Source of the DNA: an uncultured Dehalococcoidia bacterium
GTDB lineage: Bacteria; Chloroflexota; Dehalococcoidia; Lucifugimonadales; JAAXIE01
Direction of reading: 5' to 3'
Assembly: GCA_951813255.1 (NCBI GenBank)
Contig: OX638353.1
Coordinates: 2,663,501-2,727,500 of the forward strand
Length of the DNA: 64,000 nucleotides
Part shown: positions 2,166 to 59,577 of the stretch, piece after piece
How the letters are laid out: each line of letters begins with the position of its first letter
Position numbering within the stretch: the stretch's first letter is position 1
Notes under the pieces: generated by a model
Databases searched by the model: none
Told to the model about the DNA's origin: nothing
What the model saw: only the letters and a program-made list of their open reading frames with translations
Position numbers and translations under genes: made by a program

Positions 2166-2951
2166 CTAGGTCCCTTCGCCATCAGAGCCCCATCCGCCCA
2201 GAGGAGCCCCTCCTTTTGGAGAAGAAACATCCACGGCTATGGCCCCCGCCGCCAAGGCCCGGTCCAAGCTCGCGCGCTGTGGCCTGTTCAGTCCCACATG
2301 TTGGCGTTGTGATCGCATCTGCCGCACTGCATCGTCCACGCTATCCGCTACGCCGGTGGCTAGCAGCATCGCAGCCACGAACGTCGCAGACCTCCCGTGA
2401 CCTAGAGTGCACTGCACCAGCACCGCCTCCCCGTTCTTCACCCTTTCCAACGCCCAATCAACTCCTCGCGAAAGCTGCTCCACCGTCGGCCCCGACGCAT
2501 CCAGCACCGGCACCGCCAAATAGTTCGGCGCATCAGTCGATGTCCCAGGGTCTCGTGGTATCTCAGCGCACACATCCAGTACCGCCGATACCCCCCGCCT
2601 CGAGAGCCCCGGCCTGTCCCAAGGCAGTATCCGCCCCCCCACCAGAATCCCCCGTCCCAAGTCGGTGGCAGCAGGCTCCCGCGTCGCCACCCGCACCAGC
2701 ACCACGTTCACATAACGGCTGATGACAAACGGAAGATACCCCAGCAGCCACAGCGCCGGAATCGTGCCGTCAGGCCTCTTCCGGAACAACCTTCCCCCCA
2801 TCCCGTCCGACCTCTGGACCAAGTACGCCGCCGCCGGCAATAGCTGGGACAACGCCATCCAGAAGAGCACCGCAGCCGGCAACAACAATATCCCATCCAA
2901 CAGAAAAACACCGCCGGTGGTCAGCACCGCAGCAACGAACGTGAACCCCAA
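2166..2951 (-). CDS. Membrane-anchored dual-specificity-type protein phosphatase
   Basis: The protein has 261 residues. The N-terminal 90 residues hold two hydrophobic hairpin segments (about 3-45) and a further one (about 66-87). The C-terminal half is a cysteine phosphatase domain: the P-loop VQCTLGHGRS gives C181-x5-R187, and D151 in VPVLDAS is the probable general acid. This fits the DSPc/PTP-like superfamily, which removes phosphate from proteins or inositol lipids; the residue before the Cys is Gln rather than the usual His. TTG at 2951 sits 18 bases from a strong GGAGGAG, whereas CTG at 2963 has ideal spacing (6 bases), so translation may begin four codons earlier at a non-canonical CTG. 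The substrate is not known. Confidence 0.8.
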   Translation of the reverse strand: MGFTFVAAVLTTGGVFLLDGILLLPAAVLFWMALSQLLPAAAYLVQRSDGMGGRLFRKRPDGTIPALWLLGYLPFVISRYVNVVLVRVATREPAATDLGRGILVGGRILPWDRPGLSRRGVSAVLDVCAEIPRDPGTSTDAPNYLAVPVLDASGPTVEQLSRGVDWALERVKNGEAVLVQCTLGHGRSATFVAAMLLATGVADSVDDAVRQMRSQRQHVGLNRPQRASLDRALAAGAIAVDVSSPKGGAPLGGWGSDGEGT

Positions 2952-2996
2952 AGCCTGCCTCAGCTCGCGCTCCTCCTAGTCATTCCCGCGCCCCCC

Positions 2997-3205
2997 GTCA
3001 TTCCCGCGCAGGGGGAACCCACGTCCCTCACTCCATTACAATCCCAACGCCAACCAGCGAAACGACACCCCAACTCGCCCCCCTCCGTCATTCCCGCGCA
3101 GGCGGGAACCCACGTCCCTCACTCCATTACAATCCCAACACCAACCAGCGAAACGACACCCCAACTCGCCCCCCTCCGTCATTCCTGCGAAGGCAGGAAC
3201 CCACG
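2997..3205. repeat. Tandem array of intergenic repeat family A (90-91 bp units)
   Basis: Three copies of a unit starting GTCATTCC(C/T)GCG begin at 2997, 3087 and 3178. The first two units are almost identical over 90 bp and include the downstream text ACCCACGTCCCTCACTCC. The head of each unit is a small palindrome (ATTCCCGCGCAGGCGGGAA in the second unit; ATTCCTGCGAAGGCAGGAA in the third), in which both stem sides change together. No gene is evident between 2964 and 3560. The same family appears inside the terminase gene at 8123-8252. Confidence 0.85.
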
Positions 3206-3234
3206 TCCCACTCCCCCAACCTCCCTCACCCTCC

Positions 3235-3326
3235 CGTTCGTCCTGGAGCGAAGTGGTGGGGTCAACACAACCTCCGCACTCGGTCGCTTGAAGGCTGTGT
3301 TGACCCCACCACGAAGTCGAAGGACC
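3235..3326. repeat. Intergenic palindromic repeat family B, copy 1
   Basis: This 92-bp element starts CGTTCGTCCTGGAGCGAAGT and ends ACGAAGTCGAAGGACC. Its inner arms GTGGTGGGGTCAACACA and TGTGTTGACCCCACCAC are exact reverse complements. Related copies lie at 5548-5638, 8293-8377 and 9066-9156. Confidence 0.85.
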
Positions 3327-3436
3327 CCGCCTTCCACCAGCGCGTCCCTTTCATACTCATTCCTGACCCCACAGGGCATCCGCAATTCCCCACAAAGGCC
3401 CGGACTCTTGAGACCAGGAACCCTCGCACAACCCCT

Positions 3437-3464
3437 GTCATCGCGGCAAAAGCCGCAATCCAGA
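3437..3464. repeat. Short palindromic repeat (family A-like)
   Basis: GTCATCGCGGCAAAAGCCGC, followed by AATCCAG, forms a small hairpin (GCGGC/GCCGC). It resembles the GTCATTCCGGCGAAAGCCGG element at 8980-9012. Confidence 0.6.
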
Positions 3465-3521
3465 GGCCCTGCATGGTGCGCTGTGATCTTGAACCCCATA
3501 AAGGACAAAGCGAGTTTCCCG

Positions 3522-3527
3522 TATAAT
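3522..3527 (+). promoter_or_regulatory. -10 box TATAAT upstream of the phosphoesterase
   Basis: A perfect TATAAT lies 33 bases before the ATG at 3561. No convincing -35 hexamer is seen at 16-18 bases. The same block, slightly degraded (CTATAACAG), recurs at about 5677 in the duplicated 5' fragment. Confidence 0.5.
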
Positions 3528-3560
3528 AGCACGCAGCCATCCGCCCTCCGGGAGAACCCC

Positions 3561-4052
3561 ATGCTCCTAGGCGTCGTATCCGATACCCACGGCTACATGG
3601 ACCCCCGCGTCGCCCCCCTCCTCAAGGGCGTCGACCACATCCTCCACGTCGGCGACATCGGCCAGCCCAACGTCAACGACCAGCCAGACATCATCAGCCA
3701 GCTTTCCTCCATCGCCCCCGTCACCGCCGTTCGCGGCAACAACGACCGCCAACCACCCGAGTCCCTCTACCCCGAAGAAGTGACCCTCGACCTCGAAGGC
3801 TGCCGCATCTACCTCACCCACCAAGTCAAAGTCCCCAAAAGCCCCCGCAGCCGTCTCCTCAAACCCTACTCCGACGCCAACCTCCAAGTCGTCATCTCAG
3901 GCCACAGCCACATCGCCCTCCAGAAACAGGTCGGAAACATCCTCTTCTTCAACCCCGGCGCCGCCGGCAAACGCCGCTTCAACACTATCCCCTCCATCGG
4001 CCTCCTCCACCTAGTCGACGGCCAAGCCCAAGGCAAGCTCCTCCCCCTATAA
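3561..4052 (+). CDS. YfcE/MJ0936-family metallophosphoesterase
   Basis: This 163-residue protein carries the complete calcineurin-like phosphoesterase motif set: SDTHG (D8, H10), HVGDIG, RGNNDR, LTHQ and SGHSH, followed by NPGAAGKRR near the C-terminus. It is therefore a dimetal phosphodiesterase of the YfcE/MJ0936 type, acting in the cytoplasm on an unknown phosphodiester. Length is normal for the family. The ATG at 3561 is chosen because GGAG lies 6 bases upstream and the first catalytic motif starts at residue 7; the frame is open further upstream but there runs through repeat sequence. Fragments of a second copy of this gene lie at 4341-4434 and about 5655-5755. Confidence 0.9.
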   Translation: MLLGVVSDTHGYMDPRVAPLLKGVDHILHVGDIGQPNVNDQPDIISQLSSIAPVTAVRGNNDRQPPESLYPEEVTLDLEGCRIYLTHQVKVPKSPRSRLLKPYSDANLQVVISGHSHIALQKQVGNILFFNPGAAGKRRFNTIPSIGLLHLVDGQAQGKLLPL

Positions 4053-4139
4053 CCCCCGCCCAACCCTTCCCGCCGCTGTGTACAGCAGCGTTGGGCAGTC
4101 CGTATACTTATCAGCATCCAGCCTTGGGAGGCACCCGAA

Positions 4140-4316
4140 ATGGGTGGACTGATGAAAACCTTTACCGCCCCTACCCTGACGGCCCTCAGGAAAGAGGTCC
4201 AGAACTTCACCAAAGAGGCCCACGCCCAAGGAATGCAGGTGCATGTCGGCTGGGACCCCATGAAAGTGCAACAAACGAAGGATGGCTACTCCATCTTCGT
4301 CCACGCTCATGACTGA
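4140..4316 (+). CDS. Small hypothetical protein (58 aa)
   Basis: A short reading frame starts at ATG 4140, preceded by GGGAGG. It encodes a soluble, His-rich 58-residue protein (start MGGLMKTF, an amphipathic stretch LTALRKEVQNFTKEAHAQ, end SIFVHAHD). I do not recognise it. It sits between the intact phosphoesterase and the 3' remnant of a second copy. The good ribosome-binding site and amphipathic helix argue for a real gene, but there is no supporting domain. Confidence 0.45.
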   Translation: MGGLMKTFTAPTLTALRKEVQNFTKEAHAQGMQVHVGWDPMKVQQTKDGYSIFVHAHD

Positions 4317-4340
4317 CAAGCAACACATTGCATAAAGTCG

Positions 4341-4434
4341 CACCACCGGCAAACGCCGCTTCAACACCACCCCATCCATCGGCCTCCTGCAGATAGAAGA
4401 CGGCCAAGCCCACGGCGCCATCCACCCCCTGTAG
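4341..4434 (+). pseudogene. 3' fragment of a second metallophosphoesterase gene
   Basis: The sequence encodes TGKRRFNTTPSIGLLQIEDG and a further QAHGAIHPL before a TAG. This matches the last 30 residues of the intact gene at 3561-4052 (AGKRRFNTIPSIGLLHLVDG, QAQGKLLPL), with only a few differences. Nothing of the catalytic N-terminal part precedes it, so it is a truncated remnant. Confidence 0.8.
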
Positions 4435-4576
4435 CCACACCCTCCTTCCCCCTTCGTCCTAGGTCCGATGCTCAGAGCAGAATCTATTGGTTTGAGCCAA
4501 TTGCATAACGAGACGGATTACACCATTCGCTCTAACATAGATATAGCGAGCGTACGATTAACGTGCCATTTCTTCG

Positions 4577-4604
4577 TTGACAGGGAATCGCTAGATGCTA
4601 AAGT
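4577..4604 (+). promoter_or_regulatory. Probable sigma-70-type promoter for the 107-aa/dCTP deaminase pair
   Basis: TTGACA at 4577-4582 and TAAAGT at 4599-4604 are separated by 16 bases. They lie 31 bases before the ATG at 4636. The surrounding 150 bases are clearly more AT-rich than the flanks. Confidence 0.5.
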
Positions 4605-4635
4605 CCTCCATTAAGCAGGAGATAGGAGAGTAACG

Positions 4636-4959
4636 ATGAGCATCCCTAAGGTGCCACAGTGGAGAGACGAGCCCGAGCCCGTCTGGATAAACTGTGGAGA
4701 TGTCCGAAGCCTTAGGGACGAGGAGTTCTTGGTGTCCTTCAACGCCAACGGTAAAGGCTTCATCTCCTTTGTTCCTAGTAGATTTATCGATCCAGACAGG
4801 CGTCTCCTCCAAGCCGTCATAATCGCAGACGTGGATGAAGGTCTGCTGGTAGACATACCTGTAGAGACTCTTACCTCGGGGCCTAGGATTCTTGTACTGG
4901 ACTCCGAAAAGGATTCTGTCCTAACGTTCTCTAATCCGGTTACTTCCGTTGGTCCTTAG
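4636..4959 (+). CDS. Hypothetical protein (107 aa) paired with dCTP deaminase
   Basis: This is a soluble, acidic 107-residue protein with no recognised domain. It is predicted to be mostly beta strand (GKGFISFVPSRFI, LLQAVIIADVDEGLLVDIPV, PRILVLDSE). The start is well supported by AGGAGATAGGAGAG upstream. Its last 11 bases overlap the TTG start of the dCTP deaminase, so the two are probably translationally coupled and act together. Base composition is less GC-biased than in the flanking genes, suggesting acquisition by transfer. The function is unknown; a regulator or partner of nucleotide metabolism is only a guess from context. Confidence 0.65.
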   Translation: MSIPKVPQWRDEPEPVWINCGDVRSLRDEEFLVSFNANGKGFISFVPSRFIDPDRRLLQAVIIADVDEGLLVDIPVETLTSGPRILVLDSEKDSVLTFSNPVTSVGP

Positions 4960-56689: not shown

Positions 56690-57862
56690 ATGATCGACAA
56701 GTTTTCCGTGTTGTACGTCGGCCAGATTGAGTTGGAGAATATCGGCATCGACGGCACACCGGCGGACGAGAGGCGATATCCCAACGAGCGGCTCACCGAG
56801 GGATTGGCCAACGCGGAAAAGATGGCCGTGCTGCTCGATGAGTTGGGTTTCCATGCCCTGTGGACTGCGGAGCACCACTTTCAAAGGGAAGGGTACGAGT
56901 GCCTGCCCAACCTGATACTTCTCGGGACCCATCTAGCTGGCAAGACCAAGAACCTGAAATTCGGCTGCGCCTTCAATATTGCCCCCATGTGGCACCCTCT
57001 ACGCTTGGCCGAAGACTATGCCATGGCCGACTTCCTAACTGGCGGGCGCATCATTTTTGGCGTGGGTCGTGGCTACCACAGCCGGGAGGTGGAGACCTTC
57101 GGCGCTCCCGTCATCGACAATGACGCCAACCGCGAACTGTTTGAAGAGCAGATGGAGATCATCTTCAAGGCCTTCAACGAAGACTCTTTCAGCCACCAAG
57201 GCAAGTACTACCAGATACCCGCCAATGTTCCCTATCGTGGCTACGACTTACAGGACATCACCTTGGTGCCCCGGCCCTCGCACAAACCAGTGGAGATATG
57301 GCAGCCCATCGCCAGCGGCAGGACCTTGGAGTGGATGGCCAGCAAAGGCATCAAGGCAATGGTGGGGCTCACTGGCGAAATGCTGGTGGACCGGCTTTTC
57401 CGGGACTACCAAGGCTATGCTGCCAAGCACGGGCGGGACCTGGCTCTGGGTGAGGGTCTGGCACTGAACGTGGGCTTCTGCTTGGCCGATACGCAGGAAG
57501 AGGCGATGGAGCGGGTGCGGAAGTCTCACGACGAGCGCTACAAGTGGTTCGCCCCCTTTGGCTTCGTACGGTACACCGACGAGCAGGGCCGGGCTTGGGG
57601 CACGCCTGGCGCGCCGGCACGTCTGCCGCATATTGAGGACGGGGTGCAGCAGAAGGCTTGGATATGCGGTCCATCGGAAGAGTTCGTCTCCTATCTCAAG
57701 GAGACCGAGGAGAAGTACCCAGGGCTGGAACACCTCGTGCTCCACTGGCCTGAGGGGATGCCCTTCGAGGAATTCAGTGAGCAACTCAAGCGCTTTGCGC
57801 AAGAAGTGATGCCTGCCTTCCAGAGGTCCGAGTCCAGAGAAGCCTCAGCTCCAGCCGACTAA
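56690..57862 (+). CDS. LLM-class flavin-dependent monooxygenase
   Basis: The 390-residue luciferase-like protein shows VLLDELGFHALWTAEHHFQR, LGTHLAGKTKNLKFGCAFNI, MWHPLRLAEDYAMADFLTGG, RIIFGVGRGYHSREVETFGA and HKPVEIWQPIASGRTLEWMA. The W-x-A-E-H-H motif is that of the bacterial luciferase alpha-like branch that uses reduced FMN. SAR202-type genomes are noted for many such paralogues. The substrate is unknown. A probable selenoprotein gene follows after 60 bases. Confidence 0.9.
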   Translation: MIDKFSVLYVGQIELENIGIDGTPADERRYPNERLTEGLANAEKMAVLLDELGFHALWTAEHHFQREGYECLPNLILLGTHLAGKTKNLKFGCAFNIAPMWHPLRLAEDYAMADFLTGGRIIFGVGRGYHSREVETFGAPVIDNDANRELFEEQMEIIFKAFNEDSFSHQGKYYQIPANVPYRGYDLQDITLVPRPSHKPVEIWQPIASGRTLEWMASKGIKAMVGLTGEMLVDRLFRDYQGYAAKHGRDLALGEGLALNVGFCLADTQEEAMERVRKSHDERYKWFAPFGFVRYTDEQGRAWGTPGAPARLPHIEDGVQQKAWICGPSEEFVSYLKETEEKYPGLEHLVLHWPEGMPFEEFSEQLKRFAQEVMPAFQRSESREASAPAD

Positions 57863-57922
57863 GTATCACTCCTTCATGTGTTGGCAGACTACCCGACTGT
57901 CTCGAGGAGGTGCCTCAGAGCC

Positions 57923-58675
57923 ATGGCTACGATGACCGAGATTGAGACGTATAACTATGCCAACTTTGGCCCCGGGTCCAGTGCCTCGGATTTTGCCAAG
58001 TTCCGCGAGCACATGAAGGTGGGAGATAGGGCTCCCGACTTCCAGGCCACGCTTCTCGATACGGGTGAGACGGTCCAACTCAGCGATTACTGGAAGGACC
58101 AGGACCTGCTCATTGAGTTCGGCTCCCTCACTTGACCCTACTGCTCGCTGGCGGCGCCAGCGCTGGAGCCCATGGCCAAGGAATACGAGTCCAAGGGCTT
58201 CAAGTCCATCTTCGTCTACACCCGCGAGGCTCATCCTGGGGAGCACTACCCAGCCCACCGCAGCATTGAGCAGAAAGTATCCCAAGCCATGGCTTTCAAG
58301 CAGATACTTGGTATTGAGCGGCCCATACTGGTGGATGACGTTATGGGCACCGGCCACGATATGTACGGTACGCTGCCGAACATGACCTACATCGTCGCCC
58401 GTGCCAGTGGCCGTGTGCTATTCCGCTCCGACTGGACCGACCCGCCTACTATCAAGAACGTGCTGGACTACATCCTAGACTGTCGTGAGCGTCGCCGAGA
58501 GGGCGTGCGCCTCACGCCGTTCTACTCAGAGGTTGTTGGCTACCGCTGGAGTGACCAAGCCAAGCAGGAGGAGGCGCTAGCCCGGGCGGGCCCGCAAGCG
58601 GTGGAGGACATGGCGACGGCCATGCAGAGGCGGGGGTCCGGCCCCAGACCAGGATTTATTTCGCTCGACTCCTAG
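57923..58675 (+). CDS. Deiodinase-like thioredoxin-fold protein, probable selenoprotein (in-frame TGA)
   Basis: One continuous frame runs from ATG 57923 to the TAG at 58673-58675, broken only by TGA at 58133-58135 (codon 71). Before it come VGDRAPDFQATLLDTGETVQ and LLIEFGSLT. After it come P-Y-C-S-L-A-A-P, then FKSIFVYTREAHPGEHYPAH and GIERPILVDDVMGTGHDMYG. This is a redoxin of the iodothyronine-deiodinase-like kind, where the TGA falls exactly at the nucleophilic Cys/Sec of (C/U)-x-x-C. Reading it as Sec gives a 250-residue protein with U-P-Y-C. A hairpin follows at 58143-58169. If the organism lacks Sec machinery the gene would be broken instead. No sel gene is in the window. Confidence 0.7.
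58143..58169 (+). promoter_or_regulatory. Candidate bacterial SECIS hairpin
   Basis: CGCTGGC (58146-58152) pairs with GCCAGCG (58156-58162) around a GGC loop, and GCTC (58143) can pair with GAGC (58166). It begins 8 bases after the TGA at 58133-58135 and its apex is about 18 bases beyond it, within the range known for bacterial SECIS elements. Confidence 0.4.
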
Positions 58676-58722: not shown

Positions 58723-59577
58723 ATGACCACCAAGAGAGGCGTGCGGTACGATCCCAATGCTACGTTTGAAGTCCGCGAGTTCGACCTTGAGTACCTGAAC
58801 TACCAAGGTGAGTCCCGGATGGTGCGCATCTACCAGCCACAGGGGGAGGGCCCCTTCCCAGTGCTGCTGAGCATTCATGGCGGGGCTTGGAGCGCAGGTA
58901 ATCATGAGAACAACCCGGTGACCACCCGGCCCATTGCCCGCAGCGGCGTACTGGTGGCTGCCATAGGGCTGCGGGTGGCGCCTGAATTCCCCTACCCAGC
59001 CCAAGTGCAGGACACGAACTACGGCACCCGGTGGATCAAGCAGCACGCCAGGGAGTTCAATGGTGACCCCTCCACCTTGGGGGCCATCGGGTACTCGTCG
59101 GGTGGGCATACCCTGCCGTTGTCGGCTATGCGTCCCAACGATCCGCGTTACGGCGCTATACCGTTGCAGGGCGATGCTGATGCCACTGTAGGCTGGATGG
59201 GCGTCTGCTGGCCCGTCATTGACCCCTATGTCCGGCACATGGTTTCCCAACAGGCTGGAAACGATGAACTGTCGGGCAAGAACCTGGGGTACTTCCTCGG
59301 CGAAGAGGCGATGCATGAGGCCAACCCCGTTGAGATGCTGGAGCGTGGGGAGAAGTGCGTACTTCCTCCCACTTTGGTGATACACGGGACCGCGGATACG
59401 AATGTACCCTTCGAGCGGGCCGAGCGGTTCTGTGAGTTGTACAACGCAGCGGGTGGCAAGGCTCAGCTTGAACCCTTCCAAGACCAGCCCCACAGTTTCG
59501 GCAATAGCCCAGGACCCCAGTCTGACAGGCTGGTGGAAGTGGTGAAGAGCTACATCGCCAAGTTTTTGGGTGCTTAA
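58723..59577 (+). CDS. Alpha/beta hydrolase (esterase)
   Basis: The 284-residue protein has the oxyanion motif SIHGGAWSAGN (HGGAW, as in hormone-sensitive-lipase-like esterases), nucleophile elbow AIGYSSGGHTL, acid in VIHGTADTNVPFERAE and His in QDQPHSFGN. It hydrolyses carboxyl esters or amides of unknown identity in the cytoplasm; no signal peptide is seen. GTGAGGAAG stands just before the ATG. Confidence 0.88.
   Translation: MTTKRGVRYDPNATFEVREFDLEYLNYQGESRMVRIYQPQGEGPFPVLLSIHGGAWSAGNHENNPVTTRPIARSGVLVAAIGLRVAPEFPYPAQVQDTNYGTRWIKQHAREFNGDPSTLGAIGYSSGGHTLPLSAMRPNDPRYGAIPLQGDADATVGWMGVCWPVIDPYVRHMVSQQAGNDELSGKNLGYFLGEEAMHEANPVEMLERGEKCVLPPTLVIHGTADTNVPFERAERFCELYNAAGGKAQLEPFQDQPHSFGNSPGPQSDRLVEVVKSYIAKFLGA

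Follow-up and report, generated by a model that had tools for sequence, protein, structure and literature searches.

The locus and its reading frame

The window, a stretch of 64,000 nucleotides from an uncultured Dehalococcoidia bacterium, lies within a single 3.40 Mb contig of an assembly with a contamination estimate of 7.7%. Near its right end, a predicted selenoprotein gene stands between two enzyme genes, with the following features:

56690-57862: luciferase-like monooxygenase, upstream neighbour
57904..57910, forward strand: Shine-Dalgarno-like GAGGAGG ahead of the start codon (ATG, 57923), read directly from the sequence
57923..58675, forward strand: putative selenoprotein gene of the deiodinase-like type, encoding 250 aa with Sec as residue 71 (translation with TGA = U)
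58133..58135, forward strand: TGA codon read as Sec (U71), first position of a thioredoxin-type U-P-Y-C
58142..58144, forward strand: codon of Cys74, the presumed resolving thiol of UxxC; Cys in 46/58 Sec-containing rows of the homologue alignment
58146..58162, forward strand: bacterial SECIS hairpin CGCUGGC-[GGC]-GCCAGCG, 7 bp, with its apical G (58153) 17 nt past the UGA, assigned from homologue covariation
58723-59577: alpha/beta hydrolase, downstream neighbour

The translation of 57923-58675 yields a frame of 250 residues in which the sole internal TGA, at 58133-58135, stands in the context ...EFGSLT-U-PYCSLAAP.... The first-pass annotation had described a single frame broken only by TGA, with this codon at the first catalytic position of C-x-x-C in a thioredoxin-like protein. 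Both descriptions were borne out: homologues match on either side of the codon and carry TGA at the homologous position, and the motif reads EFGSLT-U-PYC.

In a mechanical ORF list, the gene appears as two ORFs of the same frame, one ending at 58135 and the next starting at 58172. If the TGA were a true stop, the locus would encode a 70-residue peptide and a separate 167-residue protein from the ATG at 58172, which lies after the hairpin. This division would, however, remove the active-site residue, split the thioredoxin fold, and leave the conserved TGA, Cys74 and the SECIS hairpin between the halves without explanation. True termination is accordingly regarded as very improbable.

The selenocysteine machinery of the genome

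The reading of TGA as selenocysteine had been tied to the presence of a decoding machinery in the genome, and all components sought were found. The selA (552 bits), selB (346 bits) and selD (393 bits) genes each score over the cut-off. A tRNA-Sec with a TCA anticodon (UCA in the tRNA sequence) is recognised by both Rfam and ARAGORN. SelD carries its own in-frame TGA, in the context SHCAG-U-AAKIS, and thus represents a further Sec gene in the same genome. The position is that of the catalytic Cys/Sec in known SelD proteins.

Across the order, selA passes its cut-off in 128 of the 147 genomes, so that Sec decoding is the norm among its members. A comparison of selA presence with TGA presence across relatives yielded no information because nearly all genomes have selA.

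The contig harbours two selD copies near its opposite ends, at G000:C1:15765-16688 (L012) and 3386799-3387722 (L011). They sit in segments of about 3.9 kb that are 95-96% identical. The arrangement has the appearance of a circular overlap between strain variants that the assembly left unresolved, a true duplication being conceivable as well. The overlap may explain part of the contamination estimate.

Conservation of the selenocysteine position

The full-length frame aligns with homologues at 59-64% identity across residues 1-249, before and after the TGA, and the nearest family members are about 60% identical. At 55-64% identity, full-length homologues stem from MAGs that carry the labels Chloroflexi, Dehalococcoidia, Pyrinomonadaceae, Deltaproteobacteria and Thermomicrobiales. 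Of six such homologues, five have TGA at the corresponding column; L058, the remaining one, is without the UPYC segment and was set aside as locally divergent or damaged. Further homologues came from searches of the 147 relatives in the order and of 400 phylum genomes.

Of the 71 homologue rows in the tree set, 58 have TGA at the U71 column; the records behind them bear the labels Chloroflexota, Acidobacteriota, Myxococcota and Thermomicrobiota. The non-TGA rows have Cys (6/71) or Ser, Ala, Gly or Asp (7/71). The close UxxC clade, with motifs of the UPYC/UPPC/USEC type, has Sec in all 46 rows; the branch uniting it has modest support (84/48). The window protein groups with two Chloroflexota sequences (97/89), and its nearest named homologues are Chloroflexota. 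That the family occurs under four phylum labels points to horizontal transfer or to the mis-binning of MAGs.

The first-pass annotation had asked whether Cys replaces the TGA in homologues, and the answer is divided. All six Cys rows belong to distant branches, which also include Ser, Ala, Gly and Asp forms, and the close clade has no Cys row.

Seven deiodinase-like homologues have neither Sec nor Cys at this column, namely L059 (A), L060 (S), L084 (G), L085 (S), L087 (A), L090 (D) and L094 (S). All of them keep a REAHP-like segment, and they are perhaps relatives without a redox role that serve a different function.

The TGA could in principle stem from a sequencing error or mark a pseudogene disabled by a nonsense mutation. 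The codon was read from one contig only, with the contamination estimate given above, and the near-end duplicates, about 95-96% alike, mark the assembly as imperfect. However, about 58 homologue rows, drawn from many genomes and named MAGs, have the same TGA, a covarying hairpin adjoins it, and the remainder of the frame is intact. The conservation of the TGA refutes this explanation, which retains a negligible probability.

A SECIS hairpin downstream of the UGA

The hairpin occupies a fixed place in the homologues, with its arms at +14 to +20 and +24 to +30 from the U of the UGA and its apical G at +21. The stems vary (CUGGC/GCCAG, GCGGA/UCCGC, GGGGA/UCCCC), while the G stays first in the loop. 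Covariation was computed on 38 distinct sequences. The score is 0.63 against 0.19 for shuffled alignments, and six of the seven pairs have changed on both sides. Such both-side changes fill 72 cells compared with 25 after shuffling, a value that none of 500 shuffles reached. Paired cells amount to 89% (65% when shuffled) and fall to 60% or less when the arms are slid by 1 to 3 columns.

As a codon control, synonymous codons were shuffled in 2000 trials that kept each protein sequence and the codon use of each gene. The mean uninterrupted pair run is 5.02, whereas the shuffles gave 0.78 +/- 0.22 with a maximum of 1.64. All five core pairs are present in 48 of 57 Sec rows, and in 9 of 13 later Sec sequences that had not entered the hairpin definition. 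Non-Sec homologues mostly have 0-3 of the five, one having 4.

In three rows, L088, L091 and L093, the TGA is followed by a UPIT- or UPLA-type motif and the hairpin lies outside the common register. It may be shifted in position there.

When the locus was folded as a single sequence, its hairpin did not exceed in strength those of shuffled versions of this GC-rich stretch (z about 0), and the SECIS assignment therefore rests on the comparison of homologues. An Rfam search of the locus matched no family at the hairpin. On the comparative evidence, the hairpin is taken to be a bacterial SECIS element.

The hairpin also bears on the possibility that the TGA is read as Trp or Cys through a suppressor tRNA or an altered code. 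Any reading of TGA as a sense codon would keep the frame open. However, of the window's 29 longest non-overlapping ORFs, 8 stop at TGA, which indicates that it has no genome-wide sense reading. The genome has a TCA-anticodon tRNA-Sec along with selA, selB and selD, and the hairpin is reduced in homologues with Cys, Ser or Ala at the site. Insertion of another amino acid is thus as improbable as true termination.

Decoding as selenocysteine, as the first-pass annotation had claimed, is strongly supported by the Sec machinery in the genome and the TGA column kept in homologues. Judged from sequence, the UGA lies in a real gene and is almost certainly decoded as selenocysteine. The fuller statement, Sec at U71 in a deiodinase-like redoxin, is held with very high confidence.

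Family, fold and relay residues

The kinship to deiodinases, likewise proposed at first pass, found strong support. The T4_deiodinase profile (PF00837) matches with 38.3 bits against a gathering score of 27, and 36 of 37 aligned family members match it. Redoxin (44.1) and AhpC-TSA (42.9) outscore it, all three lying above the curated Pfam cut-offs. NCBIfam NF038285 deiodinase_rel reaches 65 bits over residues 28-169, below its curated cut-off of 250 bits. A profile of the family retrieves mouse Dio3 first (E 5.9e-24), Dio2 second and ResA third (1.8e-14). The AlphaFold model (pLDDT 94, pTM 0.92) has Dio3 as its top Foldseek match and best PDB match (9.9e-10), with ResA-type proteins close behind (E about 3e-9), which places the fold between both. 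The structure model and the profile and Pfam searches together point to a protein between iodothyronine deiodinase and the TlpA/ResA thiol oxidoreductases.

The proton relay of Dio2 comprises S127, T129, Y157, E160, H162 and H182 (PMC11592359). These residues map to S68, T70, Y99, E102, H104 and H112 in the window protein. Among the Sec rows, H104 is conserved in 58/58, T70 in 57/58, E102 and Y99 in 55/58 each, S68 in 54/58 and H112 in 40/58.

With animal Dio1-3 (PDB 4tr3, 9h48), the window protein shares the thioredoxin/peroxiredoxin-type fold, FGSxTU, the S/T/Y/E/H/H relay and the EAHP motif. It differs in several respects. The substrate loop, loop-D, is for the most part missing, being 9 residues shorter and without the conserved Trp, and Leu69 stands at the position of the Dio proximal Cys. 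UxxC replaces UPPF, so that the resolving thiol would be C74 and not the Dio cysteines, and the bacterial SECIS is placed inside the coding region. With TlpA/ResA (PDB 4nmu, 1su9), the thioredoxin fold and a CxxC-type active site are shared, but the window protein has Sec for the first Cys and adds a REAHP segment and a C-terminal helical extension past the ResA-like core. TlpA/ResA proteins are also a weaker profile match to the family than Dio3.

The same order contains a second, more Dio-like Sec protein (L050, L051, L052, L074, L075). These canonical Dio-like relatives share the Sec column and the deiodinase homology, but they have FGSYTUPPF without CxxC, and L050-L052 have a DGW loop. They form a separate clade (support 100/99), and L050, searched by itself, matches mouse Dio3 at 1.7e-27. 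In L055, a record labelled Deltaproteobacteria, two different deiodinase-like Sec genes, of the UPPF and UPYC types, lie close to each other (2829-3554 and 4001-4741).

Proposed function and gene context

The encoded protein is best regarded as a stand-alone oxidoreductase with a thioredoxin fold that belongs to the bacterial deiodinase-like family and is probably cytosolic. Its predicted role is likely that of a selenol/thiol reductase resolved by C74, a redox role being likelier than thyroid-hormone deiodination. SelB together with Sec-tRNA-Sec would bind the hairpin and thereby recode the UGA. The selenolate of Sec71 would be tuned by the Dio-type relay (S68, T70, Y99, E102, H104, H112) and would act as a nucleophile on an electrophilic substrate, for which peroxides, disulfides and halogenated aromatics are examples. 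The selenenyl intermediate would then be resolved by Cys74, and the resulting U71-C74 selenenylsulfide would be reduced back by thioredoxin or a similar reductant. This cycle of Sec71 attack, C74 resolution and recovery by a reductant is considered somewhat more likely than not.

A rival view, which concerns function only, is that the Sec enzyme truly removes iodine or another halogen reductively from iodo- or bromo-aromatics, as a deiodinase or dehalogenase in the manner of animal Dio. Dio3 is the closest PDB neighbour by sequence and fold, and the proton-relay residues are retained. Against this stand the shortened loop-D with its missing Trp, Leu69 at the proximal Cys position in combination with a Trx-type CxxC resolving thiol, and the nearly equal fold match of TlpA/ResA proteins. 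The authors of the 2005 description likewise expected a different function (PMC1088965). True deiodination is therefore thought unlikely, and the role as a selenol/thiol reductase is preferred.

The neighbouring genes add little to this reading. The luciferase-like monooxygenase and the alpha/beta hydrolase were sought near the homologues, with weak or scattered hits only, which provides no operon argument. With gene order unconserved, the genomic context gives no clue to the substrate.

A more speculative idea, given a similarly low probability, is that the UxxC clade is a Sec-only branch uniting the Dio proton relay with a Trx-type resolving Cys. It would be a dedicated reductive dehalogenase of these environmental bacteria or carry a similar new activity, and some relatives, those with Ser/Ala/Gly/Asp, would have been repurposed after loss of the redox residue.

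Known family members and significance

Deiodinase-like bacterial selenoproteins with a bacterial SECIS were described from the Sargasso Sea in 2005 as predicted redox proteins (PMC1088965) and were counted again in the GOS data in 2008 (PMC2398784). The table of a 2026 review lists a deiodinase-like selenoprotein with the motif UxxC (PMC13188914). Bacterial PF00837 selenoproteins have thus been known since 2005, and the claim of a new selenoprotein made at first pass does not stand. With the catalogued family (PF00837; PMC1088965, PMC13188914), the gene shares its bacterial origin, the PF00837 match, the in-frame TGA, UxxC and a SECIS just 3' of the UGA. The motif of the window protein is UPYC, and the likeness to the catalogued UxxC family is drawn from published descriptions. 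Since a deiodinase-like UxxC family has already been catalogued, the gene is an added member of it and a good fresh example of a family first described in 2005. In the literature, as partially covered, no mention was found of the wide Sec-only clade in this order or of the non-thiol variants.

A standard gene caller would cut the gene of the window, and likewise those of its relatives, into two fragments. The comparison yields a large alignment in which the SECIS clearly covaries, and it reveals almost universal decoding of Sec across the order. Bacterial relatives of the deiodinases are now at hand for testing the origin of deiodinase chemistry.
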